Of a stretch of 64,000 nucleotides of DNA, positions 27-63,128 are shown piece after piece. Every line of letters begins with the position of its first letter. Position 1 is the stretch's first letter. The stretch is from Sulfurimonas sp. (lineage in GTDB: Bacteria; Campylobacterota; Campylobacteria; Campylobacterales; Sulfurimonadaceae), in the NCBI GenBank assembly GCA_011391635.1, contig JAABQD010000001.1:226752-290751 (forward strand), written 5' to 3'. The notes below the pieces were generated by a model. It worked only from the letters and a program-made list of their open reading frames with translations. It was not told where the DNA came from and made no database searches. The translations under genes and the position numbers were made by a program.

Positions 27-664
27 GAGCGAGTCAAACACACGGCACAATCGTTCTGCTCAAACCAAAACATTTTAATCCAGATATTATCTCTTTGCAA
101 ATTCCACATGCCACAGAAGAGATTTGTGGAGACTTATTTGCCAAAAAAGGAAAATTTTTACTCCTTGCAGATGGAAGCGGTCATGGCAAAAAAGCAAATA
201 AAAGTGCCGAACTTGCCAAAACACTTTTTTATAACCGCCCGTTTTCATGTATGCTTGTCGATGAATTTTTTCTCGATATTGACAAAGAACTCAAAGAGAA
301 AAAGATGCGAGGTTTAGCGCTAAGCATCTTTGAAATTTCTAAATGCAATATTCAAGTTTGTGGTATAGGAAATATCTCTTTTTGGGTACAAGATGGGGAT
401 AATTATAAGTATGTATCTCAAAAAGATGGGATATTGGGTGAACACTACTCTACAAGTGATAAATTTCTCTTTGAGCTTTCTTACAATCAAAAGTTTATCA
501 CCGCGACAGATGGGGTTGATGTAGGAAAATTTAATCAACTGCTTCTGTGTTTAGACAAAGATAGCAGTAACATATTGATGGCTTTGAGTGCCATGCACTT
601 TGCGTCTCTCGCACACGATGATAAAACAATCGTAGTAATCACAACACAAAAGGAGTTCACATGA
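23..664 (+). CDS. RsbX/SpoIIE-like PP2C-family serine phosphatase
   Basis: A 213-residue single-domain protein with the spaced metal-binding motifs of the PP2C/SpoIIE fold: ADGSGHG near residue 50, CGIGN near 113, TATDGVD near 160 and a late HDDKTIVV. Short stand-alone phosphatases of this kind (RsbX) remove phosphate from STAS proteins in partner-switching and stressosome pathways. The next gene encodes an RsbR-like STAS protein, a fitting substrate, and the two overlap by ATGA. The frame is open upstream of the ATG, so a longer start cannot be excluded, but the ATGA overlap with the preceding gene favours this one. It carries one copy of the 9-mer repeat (read as IPHAT). The family call is good; the substrate is inferred. 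Confidence 0.75.
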   Translation: MRASQTHGTIVLLKPKHFNPDIISLQIPHATEEICGDLFAKKGKFLLLADGSGHGKKANKSAELAKTLFYNRPFSCMLVDEFFLDIDKELKEKKMRGLALSIFEISKCNIQVCGIGNISFWVQDGDNYKYVSQKDGILGEHYSTSDKFLFELSYNQKFITATDGVDVGKFNQLLLCLDKDSSNILMALSAMHFASLAHDDKTIVVITTQKEFT

Positions 665-1458
665 ATGAAGTATTTAAAAAAGCCCTACTAGAGATAGTAC
701 AAAATAGCTCTCAAGAGCTGACACAACACTGGCTAGAGTATTTTGAGGATGAATATAAAGATGATGAGTATCGCCGCTATGATGATTTTCTAGGTTTTTT
801 TGAAGAGTGTGTCGAATCAGATCTCAACCCCCTCAGTGATGAGGCGGGTGCATTAAAACACTTTTTGAAAAAAGTTGTAGATATTATTGGAGAAGATTAC
901 TTTTTCCACTTTCACAACTCAGTTTACACATGTTTTTTAAAGTTCCCACTTCTCAAAGTTATCGAACAAAAAGGGTTATTCACTTATGAAAACATCAAGC
1001 CTATCACAGCGTTTTTTGAGTCATTAACATCTACCATCATTGTTGATTTGCTCCAACACCACAAATCTATTACACTCTCTTCTACCCAAGAGTTAGCAGA
1101 AAGAGAAGCCCCTATCAGTGAGATTTGGGATGGTGTTTTGATGGTATCTATCGTAGGGACACTTGATTCTTTTAGAATCCTACAAATTATCGATAAAGTG
1201 CTCAAGCATTTAGAAAAAAAAGAGTATGCACATGCCATCGTAGATATCAGTGCCATCTATGATATGAACTCAGAAGTTGCAAATCAAATCATAAAACTCA
1301 ATAACACGATTCATTACATGGGTGTCACTCCTTATATCACAGGAATCACTTCAAACATCGCCAAAAGTTTAACACACCTCAACATCAATCTAGGGGAAGT
1401 CAGAACCTATGTTACAACCAAAAAAGCAATGAAAGTGATTTTAGGACATACCAATTGA
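661..1458 (+). CDS. RsbR-like STAS-domain co-antagonist
   Basis: A 265-residue protein with an all-helical RsbRD-type N-terminal half (about 1-140) and a C-terminal STAS domain (about 150-265). The STAS core reads AIVDISAIYDMNSEVAN, matching the RsbR/RsbS segment D-I-T-G...D-T-x-V-A-N. The usual phospho-acceptor threonine is replaced by serine, preceded by Asn instead of Asp. RsbR proteins are sensory scaffolds of stressosomes whose phosphorylation is set by RsbT and reversed by RsbX. It overlaps the phosphatase before it (ATGA) and the diguanylate cyclase after it (TTGA), so signal flow from this partner switch to cyclic-di-GMP synthesis is the natural inference. The sensed input is unknown. 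Confidence 0.78.
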   Translation: MNEVFKKALLEIVQNSSQELTQHWLEYFEDEYKDDEYRRYDDFLGFFEECVESDLNPLSDEAGALKHFLKKVVDIIGEDYFFHFHNSVYTCFLKFPLLKVIEQKGLFTYENIKPITAFFESLTSTIIVDLLQHHKSITLSSTQELAEREAPISEIWDGVLMVSIVGTLDSFRILQIIDKVLKHLEKKEYAHAIVDISAIYDMNSEVANQIIKLNNTIHYMGVTPYITGITSNIAKSLTHLNINLGEVRTYVTTKKAMKVILGHTN

Positions 1459-61494: not shown

Positions 61495-62570
61495 TATGCA
61501 TCCTTCTGCGTTTTTTCTTTTAACTGTCCACATGCCGCACTGATATCAATACCCTTAGAATCGCGTATAGTACACAACAGGCCATGATTGACTAAATACT
61601 CTTGGAAAGCTACCATGGCCTCTCTACTTGGTCTATCATAGGTTGTACCAGGATAGGGGTTGAAGTAGATGAGATTTACCTTTGCTTTGATATCTGTGAG
61701 AAGTTTTACGAGTTTTTTCGCAGAGGCGATATCATCGTTTTTATTTTTAATCACCAAATACTCAAACATAACTCTTTTTCTTGTATCGATAGGAAATCGT
61801 TTTACCGCTTCTATGATAGATGCGATGTTATGTGCTTTGTTCATAGGGATAAGCTCTGTTCGTAGTTCATCATCCACCGCATGAAGAGAGATAGCGATAT
61901 GCACTCCTAAATCCATCGCACCAAGCTTGTCAATTTTACTGCTTAAGCCACTTGTAGATACAGTCTGTCTTTTAGCAGAGATACACAGACCATCCTCTTC
62001 TTTGAAAATCTCGATAGCTTTTGCTAAATTATCAAGGTTGTCAAGCGGTTCACCCATGCCCATATAGACGATATTGATTTTTCTATTATGTTTGTGGTCA
62101 TTGTCTCGCTTGAGATTGACGACTTGTGCAACTATCTCACCAGCAGTTAAATCTCTTGTAAAACCACCTTTAGCTGTTAAACAAAAAGAGCATCCTACTT
62201 TGCATCCAACTTGTGTTGAAACACAGATAGTATATTTCGCTTCTTGTATGACTTCTCCAGCTTCATCTGTAAGTATATCTTTCATTTTGAGCCAAACTGC
62301 TTCTATGGTTTTTCCATCTTGAAGCTCTAAAAGATATTTGATTGTTCCATCTGTAGAAATCTCTTTTTTAATTATTTTCATAGGATTCACAATATATTTT
62401 TGAGCCAGTTCCTCTTTGAGAGCTTTTGGAATATTTTTCATTTCATCAAAATTTTGAGCATACTGATGATAGAGCCAACCAAAAATTTGTTTGGCTCTAA
62501 AGCTTGGTTTGATAAGTTCTAAAAGCTCTTTTTGCGTAAAGTCTAAGAGCGATGGTTTGAGTTCACTCAT
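61494..62570 (-). CDS. rlmN: 23S rRNA (A2503)/tRNA (A37) C2-methyltransferase
   Basis: A 358-residue radical-SAM enzyme: CKVGCSFC binds the [4Fe-4S] cluster, and the substrate-bound catalytic Cys is in the C-terminal ISAACGQL. It methylates A2503 in 23S rRNA and A37 in some tRNAs. The codons of that catalytic cysteine lie within a copy of the repeat (61528-61536). It starts directly after the nucleosidase stop. Confidence 0.95.
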   Translation of the reverse strand: MSELKPSLLDFTQKELLELIKPSFRAKQIFGWLYHQYAQNFDEMKNIPKALKEELAQKYIVNPMKIIKKEISTDGTIKYLLELQDGKTIEAVWLKMKDILTDEAGEVIQEAKYTICVSTQVGCKVGCSFCLTAKGGFTRDLTAGEIVAQVVNLKRDNDHKHNRKINIVYMGMGEPLDNLDNLAKAIEIFKEEDGLCISAKRQTVSTSGLSSKIDKLGAMDLGVHIAISLHAVDDELRTELIPMNKAHNIASIIEAVKRFPIDTRKRVMFEYLVIKNKNDDIASAKKLVKLLTDIKAKVNLIYFNPYPGTTYDRPSREAMVAFQEYLVNHGLLCTIRDSKGIDISAACGQLKEKTQKDA

Positions 62571-63128
62571 TTATAAAGTGTCCTTTTTATTTGAAGTTAG
62601 TTCTCTTATCCGAGTTTCCACATGCCGAGATAGAAGCTCTTTTGCTTTTGCATGATTTTTTAAAAAGTCACTGTGTGCATCTTTGTTTGTATAGTTTGTT
62701 ATACAAAAAACTCCACCGGCAGGAATATCAAACTCTTCTGCAACTTTTAAAACAGCAAAAAATTCCATGTTTTCTATTTCCACTCCAAGTTTTAAAAACT
62801 TTTTTGTTAGCTCTTGGCATGTGGAAATATAATTGGAGGAGTTTACAATAACCTCTTTTTTGTTAGTTGTGTTAGTGGAAATCACATTATCAAGTGGTGT
62901 GTACGCATCATTATTTAAAAAAGCCAACTCTATATTGGAAGCTGTTTTTGATTCCACTATATCAAAAATATTGTGATTTCCATAACTTCCAGCACTGCCT
63001 ACAAAGAGTAAAAATTCAGGTTTATCAAAGAGGCAAAGACGCGTTAAATGCATTGCAGTTTCTATAAGCCCTACTCCAGTTGGTTGTGCAAAAGGGAAGG
63101 TTTCGTTATTTCCAGCACAGATAATCAT
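62571..63128 (-). CDS. Purine phosphorylase/nucleosidase-like protein
   Basis: A 185-residue short member of the PNP/UDP phosphorylase (MTA/SAH nucleosidase) family: LLFVGSAGSYGNH matches the phosphate/ribose loop and VEIENMEFFAVLKVAEE the M-E purine-site motif. It probably cleaves a purine nucleoside or futalosine-type compound; the exact substrate is not clear. ATGA overlap with hisF and no gap to rlmN. Two repeat cores (RHVETR and ISTCQE). Confidence 0.78.
   Translation of the reverse strand: MIICAGNNETFPFAQPTGVGLIETAMHLTRLCLFDKPEFLLFVGSAGSYGNHNIFDIVESKTASNIELAFLNNDAYTPLDNVISTNTTNKKEVIVNSSNYISTCQELTKKFLKLGVEIENMEFFAVLKVAEEFDIPAGGVFCITNYTNKDAHSDFLKNHAKAKELLSRHVETRIRELTSNKKDTL

Follow-up and report, generated by a model that had tools for sequence, protein, structure and literature searches.

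We analysed a window of 64,000 nucleotides from a Sulfurimonas sp. assembly (GCA_011391635.1, contig JAABQD010000001.1, positions 226,752 to 290,751), which encodes a type II secretion-type gene cluster (37982-48143) and carries many copies of a nine-letter word, GGCATGTGG, that we consider a probable DNA uptake sequence. Forty-one exact copies span positions 104 to 62824, 24 on the plus and 17 on the minus strand (Table 1), as the original prediction had counted; it had also expected fewer than one by chance, and 100 dinucleotide shuffles of the window indeed gave a mean of 0.15 and a maximum of 3. The word is non-palindromic, its complement CCACATGCC being different from it. The extended consensus proposed earlier, (C/T)TTGGCATGTGGAA, holds as a tendency around the core: among the window copies, T stands immediately 5' in 37 of 41 and C or T at three bases before in 32, while A follows immediately 3' in 39 and a second A in 30. 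In a larger sample of the same assembly (445,483 bases, comprising the window and 20 further stretches), the fullest form of the word is tYT(T/C)GGCATGTGGAAnT, and flank information falls to about zero beyond four bases on either side of the core, i.e. outside -4 to +12.

The word is not confined to the window. The whole assembly (G000; 2,345,822 bases, 84 contigs, 92% complete) contains 1,393 copies, 696 forward and 697 reverse, against 3 of the reversed word, and the sample contains 266 where a third-order Markov model expects 1.3. Near misses are in deficit relative to these 266 perfect copies, since the 27 one-base variants total 87 (39.7 expected), and two-base variants are at expectation (530 versus 551). 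Taking simply the longest frames as genes, we find 188 of the 266 copies within predicted genes and 78 between genes or at a gene edge, so that intergenic density (2.14 per kb) is 4.7 times the genic density (0.46 per kb). Frame and codon tests were based on a second, stricter set of 443 predicted genes, which holds 180 copies. These are divided equally between sense and antisense (90 each) and spread over all six frames, so no single peptide explains the word; synonymous-codon shuffles within the same genes (n=100) produced a mean of 18.7 and a maximum of 30 copies. The enrichment therefore stands, and a peptide or codon effect is ruled out.

Thirty-eight pairs of copies in the sample lie less than 60 bases apart. 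Twenty of the 38 are inverted, 11 of these being intergenic, and 4 of 17 terminator-like hairpins are built from the word. Such inverted pairs are terminator-like in sequence and are putative terminators; the one at 26128..26160 lies directly downstream of typA (26173-27975, minus strand). Tandem arrays also occur, with eight copies at 18-base spacing at L098:300-434 and three at 63-base spacing at window 12534-12668.

Copies are kept between relatives beyond background. The relative G122, whose GyrB is 94% identical to that of G000, could be aligned over 65 kb at 81.9% identity, and 42 of 54 sites are intact in both genomes (5 in G000 only, 7 in G122 only), compared with 24% of same-GC 9-mers being identical. 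In a smaller set for the same pair (30 shared, 2 and 6 unshared), six of the eight unshared sites show base differences and two show gaps. Seven further word-bearing loci, at 73-79% identity, have 14 of 55 sites in common with G000 (4-12% for same-GC 9-mers), and the pair G095/G120 has 4 of 10 in common (background 6%). Six relatives without the word share 0 of 23 sites. Two relatives with reduced counts are at background. In G123 (179 copies), 1 of 16 sites is common to G000 and 0 of 15 to G122; in G168 (226 copies), 0 of 7 are common to G000.

The relatives found through GyrB are, by name, Sulfurimonas and allied assemblies, and the genus set of 135 genomes includes Sulfurimonas indica (L043). 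At least 411 copies of GGCATGTGG are present in 11 of the 135 (411 to 1,427, G000 among them), all of them strand-balanced; a further seven fall between 85 and 226, a single genome has 50, and none of the rest exceeds 27. In a phylum sample of 397 genomes, none outside the genus exceeds 37. Slightly raised counts of 12 to 37 were seen in genus g33 of family f14 (e.g. G472, G301 and G445), with 0 to 4 for the reversed control.

Other members of the genus use other words. These surfaced from k-mer counts in GyrB loci and samples of up to 20 kb, and three of them (CTAAACGCAG, TGATGCTAAG and TACATGTAA) were then counted in all 135 genomes. The 20-kb discovery step misses words, as G011, G032, G074 and G165 score below 20 there and are word-rich by whole-genome count, so lack of a match at this step does not show a genome to be without a word. 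Thirteen genomes contain CTAAACGCAG at 75 to 320 copies; in these, GGCATGTGG occurs 0 to 15 times, and the 11 GGCATGTGG-rich genomes have only 0 to 4 copies of CTAAACGCAG. The shorter core of CTAAACGCAG, AAACGCAG, occurs up to 83 times in 92 kb (4.9 expected), and its sites are kept above background in four pairs of genomes (12/39, 24/28, 13/48 and 14/27, versus 11, 59, 11 and 22%). TGATGCTAAG is found 911 times in G126 and at most 37 times in the other 134. GGCATGTGG, AAACGCAG and TGATGCTAAG are mutually unrelated and have no common core. High counts of two of the four words are never combined in one genome; G167 has modest counts of two, with 50 GGCATGTGG and 209 TACATGTAA. Close variants were present in 40 kb each of G036 (AGCATGTGGAA) and G083 (CTCACGCA). 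A further word, ATGTGAATA, frequent in several gyrB loci, was set aside; we take it to represent probable DnaA boxes. A PriA tree, which is a single-gene and not a species tree, was built from 36 of 49 genomes, PriA being missing or short in the other 13; the identity of the protein was confirmed for G000. In this tree all five high-GGCATGTGG genomes, G123 and three CTAAACGCAG genomes form one supported group of nine, with G036 outside it. The five word labels cluster on this tree and need 13 changes, versus 20.2 when shuffled, suggesting that words have been repeatedly gained, lost or exchanged, as far as one gene shows.

The secretion-type cluster of the window includes candidate components of an uptake machine (Table 1). 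In Campylobacter jejuni, a type II secretion-type system with its secretin is essential for DNA uptake, according to excerpts of PMC10046745, and homologs are listed in PMC8308473. We surveyed the secretin across the genus, scoring at most nine first-look candidates per genome and accepting matches at E 1e-30 or better, and obtained a match in 79 of 135 genomes. Among the 85 genomes at least 90% complete (contamination unfiltered), with word-bearing defined as at least 60 copies of a non-palindromic word, or G126, the secretin is present in 19/19 word-bearing genomes versus 35/66 others (Fisher p 7e-5, kinship ignored). At a threshold of 30 copies the figures are 24/25, the exception being G010, versus 30/60. 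Word-bearing genomes below 90% completeness gave a match in 9 of 15, that of G036 at only 35% identity.

Table 1. Word copies, terminator-like hairpins and secretion-type genes in the window (positions within the 64,000 nucleotides)
Feature	Position	Strand	Detail
GGCATGTGG copy	104..112	-	
GGCATGTGG copy	2743..2751	+	
GGCATGTGG copy	2885..2893	+	
GGCATGTGG copy	3972..3980	-	
GGCATGTGG copy	5352..5360	-	
GGCATGTGG copy	5959..5967	-	
GGCATGTGG copy	6087..6095	+	
GGCATGTGG copy	6196..6204	+	
GGCATGTGG copy	12534..12542	+	1st of triplet, 63-base spacing
GGCATGTGG copy	12597..12605	+	2nd of triplet, 63-base spacing
GGCATGTGG copy	12660..12668	+	3rd of triplet, 63-base spacing
GGCATGTGG copy	13472..13480	+	
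GGCATGTGG copy	14309..14317	+	
GGCATGTGG copy	14409..14417	+	
GGCATGTGG copy	18082..18090	-	
GGCATGTGG copy	19666..19674	+	
GGCATGTGG copy	22454..22462	+	
GGCATGTGG copy	23153..23161	+	
GGCATGTGG copy	24547..24555	-	
GGCATGTGG copy	26133..26141	-	left arm of inverted pair
GGCATGTGG copy	26147..26155	+	right arm of inverted pair
GGCATGTGG copy	29256..29264	+	
GGCATGTGG copy	34064..34072	+	
GGCATGTGG copy	36763..36771	+	faces copy at 36803
GGCATGTGG copy	36803..36811	-	faces copy at 36763
GGCATGTGG copy	37402..37410	+	
GGCATGTGG copy	43062..43070	-	
GGCATGTGG copy	43552..43560	+	
GGCATGTGG copy	44083..44091	-	
GGCATGTGG copy	44930..44938	+	
GGCATGTGG copy	45779..45787	-	
GGCATGTGG copy	45891..45899	-	
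GGCATGTGG copy	47472..47480	+	
GGCATGTGG copy	48677..48685	-	
GGCATGTGG copy	53619..53627	+	
GGCATGTGG copy	54840..54848	+	left arm of inverted pair, convergent open reading frames either side
GGCATGTGG copy	54855..54863	-	right arm of inverted pair, convergent open reading frames either side
GGCATGTGG copy	60285..60293	-	
GGCATGTGG copy	61528..61536	-	
GGCATGTGG copy	62618..62626	-	
GGCATGTGG copy	62816..62824	+	
Terminator-like hairpin from inverted GGCATGTGG pair	26128..26160		-24.9 kcal/mol, z -8.9
Terminator-like hairpin from inverted GGCATGTGG pair, between convergent open reading frames	54835..54868		-23.3 kcal/mol, z -7.2
Minor pseudopilin, GspJ-like; candidate uptake-machine part	37982..38494	-	N-terminal pilin motif above cut-off; GspJ model below cut-off
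Minor pseudopilin, GspI-like	38491..38964	-	pilin motif above cut-off; GspI model below cut-off
GspE/PilB-type ATPase	38957..40468	-	PF00437, E 1e-134
GspD/PilQ-type secretin	40469..42355	-	GspD 347.4 bits, just under cut-off 351.35
GspC-like protein	42342..43154	-	82.6 bits, cut-off 101.6; PDZ below cut-off
GspK-like minor pseudopilin	44982..45914	-	weak, 22 bits, cut-off 130
GspF-like inner-membrane protein	45904..47118	-	PF00482, 150 bits
Pseudopilin	47115..47633	-	N-terminal methylation motif
GspG major pseudopilin	47637..48143	-	TIGR01710, 132 bits, over cut-off

The palindromic word, TACATGTAA, exceeds 300 counts in 14 of 135 genomes, its palindromic core often being counted on both strands, and genomes with at least 200 show no link to the secretin (6/12 versus 48/73 others). 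Its conservation is uneven (8/12, 8/11 and 7/18 sites, versus 23, 61 and 27%). We therefore set it apart as a word that may be something else. That it is abundant and lineage-specific without a secretin link shows that abundance alone proves neither function nor uptake. In G088 (417 forward, 252 reverse) and G143 (79 and 32) it is strand-uneven, unlike in the other TACATGTAA-rich genomes. Across the genus, members that lack GGCATGTGG show a strong excess of palindromic CTTACATGTAAG or TCTACATGTAGA (e.g. L135, L206-L209, L161, L073, L068 and L077), with up to about 1,100 counts when both strands are summed.

A comEC match is found in 123 of 135 genomes, and dprA in 11 of 12 tested; G000 has a match to each. 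Inspection of the comEC region in 45 genomes showed two or three pilin genes close by in 35; those of G000 are located between priA and flgB (L195:6879-7873). One of these pilins has a nearly invariant N-terminus and a hypervariable remainder, and G120 and G097, which have different words, carry 88% identical copies of it. When both pilins were compared with word labels (at least 80 counts of GGCATGTGG, 35 of CTAAACGCAG or 200 of TACATGTAA; pilin A from 32 and pilin B from 29 of the 45 genomes) after removing PriA distance, 1,451 and 1,902 of 2,000 permutations scored as high, and they were rejected as receptors that follow the dialect. Twelve proteins of the window cluster (24 to 27 genomes) showed no switch like that of ComP, the receptor known from Neisseriaceae, with residual identity differences of at most 0.029. 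A 179-residue protein (43132-43671) had 0 and GspF 5 of 1,000 permutations as high; because label permutation ignores kinship, neither is named as receptor.

Known uptake sequences are marked by the combination of abundance, strand symmetry, a deficit of near misses, conservation, terminator-like pairs and lineage dialects that is seen here, and on these marks we think it probable that GGCATGTGG, the core of the (C/T)TTGGCATGTGGAA word, is a DNA uptake sequence, i.e. a self-recognition tag for importing the DNA of kin. A surface receptor would bind the word on passing DNA, a type II secretion/pilus-type machine with its secretin would pull this DNA across the outer membrane as in C. jejuni, and ComEC would then pass it into the cell. 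Recombination would keep and spread the word because word-bearing fragments would be imported more often, and receptor preference has probably changed several times, as lineages of the genus use different words. The original prediction of an uptake-type word was largely right and is supported in part: density, symmetry, the near-miss deficit, intergenic enrichment, paired copies and conservation agree with it, and uptake itself is predicted from them; the dialects of the genus, and the link of the secretion cluster to non-palindromic words, lay beyond what the window could reveal.

Several observations weigh against an uptake sequence. The secretin statistics ignore kinship, use thresholds that were set after the data had been seen and depend on at most nine scored candidates per genome; 6 of 15 word-bearing genomes less than 90% complete have no secretin match. 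The comEC gene is found nearly throughout the genus, even in genomes where no counted word is abundant, and does not separate word-bearers; in G000 itself the match covers just a C-terminal piece that a contig end truncates (C19:1-702, L195). No dialect-matching receptor emerged among the two comEC-linked pilins and 12 cluster proteins. Finally, the palindromic word is similarly spread in other members without a secretin link.

None of the rival explanations considered accounts for all the sequence marks together. A recombination or segregation signal used by the chromosome machinery (Chi-like or KOPS-like) might likewise be abundant, non-palindromic and located in unrelated genes. Signals of this type are skewed to one replication strand, and such a bias, to which the original prediction had drawn attention, is absent here: by GC skew in 20-kb bins, the G-rich strand carries 135 copies of the sample and the C-rich strand 131, in keeping with the symmetry of the whole assembly. 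Moreover, the word differs wholly among members of one genus, and neither inverted pairs nor intergenic enrichment would be expected. We reject this explanation on the strand symmetry and leave it very little probability. It is also improbable that self DNA is marked at the word by a DNA methyltransferase or another kind of modification, with the mark rather than the bare word being read by uptake or restriction. There is precedent in Campylobacter, where uptake depends on methylated RAATTY according to excerpts of PMC10046745, and TACATGTA, the palindrome found in other members, has more the look of a modification site, but such a site needs no 200-fold excess, no flank preferences and no base-by-base upkeep within genes.

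The intergenic enrichment and the hairpins built from the word would fit a regulatory or termination element, either a binding site or a terminator arm. Most copies, however, are inside predicted genes, with sense equal to antisense, and only 20 of the 38 close pairs are inverted, so that most copies form no hairpin; we hold this to be very unlikely. Equally hard to credit is a dispersed mobile or selfish short repeat (a REP or MITE remnant) that spreads by its own means. The tandem clusters at L098 and in the window are of the kind that such a repeat might leave, but the copies share no flanks, since beyond the word with its edges the information is about zero, and genic sites conserved in a relative are not insertions.

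Compared with known systems, an uptake sequence in Sulfurimonas would be familiar in form and new in sequence. The DNA uptake sequences (DUS) of Neisseriaceae, as described in excerpts of PMC3630211 and PMC13020248, are short non-palindromic words with about 900 to 3,200 copies per genome, dialects and inverted terminator pairs, and GGCATGTGG resembles them in being short, non-palindromic and high-copy, with lineage dialects and inverted pairs at terminators (termination being predicted here). It differs in its unrelated sequence (DUS being GCCGTCTGAA) and in phylum; furthermore, Neisseriaceae dialects share a core, according to the same excerpts of PMC3630211, whereas no core is common to GGCATGTGG, AAACGCAG and TGATGCTAAG. 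Among the pilins and cluster proteins compared, no counterpart of ComP was found. The uptake signal sequence (USS) of Pasteurellaceae has a core of nine bases, is present in about 1,300 copies in H. influenzae and forms paired copies that act as terminators (PMC5217627, in part). GGCATGTGG is alike in core length, copy number and terminator-like pairs, but its core is unrelated to that of USS (AAGTGCGGT). The USS receptor is predicted to be a minor pilin (PMC12616744, in part), and none was found for GGCATGTGG among the proteins compared. The RAATTY signal of C. jejuni is a six-base degenerate methylated site, unlike a long iterated word. The HIP1-type iterated palindromes of cyanobacteria reach very high copy numbers genome-wide, as GGCATGTGG does, but they resemble the palindromic TACATGTAA, GGCATGTGG itself not being palindromic.

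An iterated uptake-type word appears to be new for Campylobacterota, as the original prediction supposed, in that no report was found in searches of open-licence literature, several of which listed the best 10 to 25 of a larger number of papers. Where the matter is treated in excerpts of PMC3630211, PMC13020248, PMC5217627, PMC8308473, PMC10046745 and PMC4584964, the holders named are Neisseriaceae (or Neisseria) and Pasteurellaceae. In the open-licence literature searched, dense uptake sequences are described in only two families, and the present case would add a third origin that lies in a different phylum. We see about even chances that Sulfurimonas evolved a third uptake-sequence system independently, that its non-palindromic dialects number three or more within the genus and are mutually unrelated (GGCATGTGG, AAACGCAG and TGATGCTAAG), that they are read by a machine of the type II secretion kind and not by a classical type IV pilus, and that lineages swap the vocabulary of the whole genome. 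If true, unrelated words in related lineages would allow the competing causes of word accumulation, namely receptor bias with recombination or selection for self-DNA, to be tested through gains, switches and losses. Receptor replacement and genetic isolation could be watched in progress, and environmental sulfur bacteria would be marked as likely to be naturally transformable, with a tool for their genetics.

Some of the genomes with fewer copies bear on comEC. Among the seven with 85 to 226 copies of GGCATGTGG, G123 has a split comEC and G168 has no comEC match, which is no more than suggestive of word decay through comEC loss. Against this, comEC frames of 420 to 438 residues are present in G162, G035, G090 and G036; in G113 comEC lies at a contig start. 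In addition, the two G123 pieces remain well conserved, at 66 and 81% identity to G122, so that the break appears more recent than the disappearance of the words. The G123 gene (contig C15, L225:1226-9351) is split by an insertion of about 8.1 kb, whose cargo includes a TnsA-like endonuclease, KwaB (an anti-phage protein, with a match that exceeds its cut-off), a radical SAM protein and a protein resembling uracil-DNA glycosylase, and whose junctions suggest a 5-base target duplication of the kind made by Tn7-like elements. The G000 comEC match begins about 20 residues downstream of the point at which that of G123 is interrupted. On the comEC-bearing contig C88 of G126 (L150), GAATGACGA and overlapping words occur 7 times in 8.6 kb, forming a local repeat.

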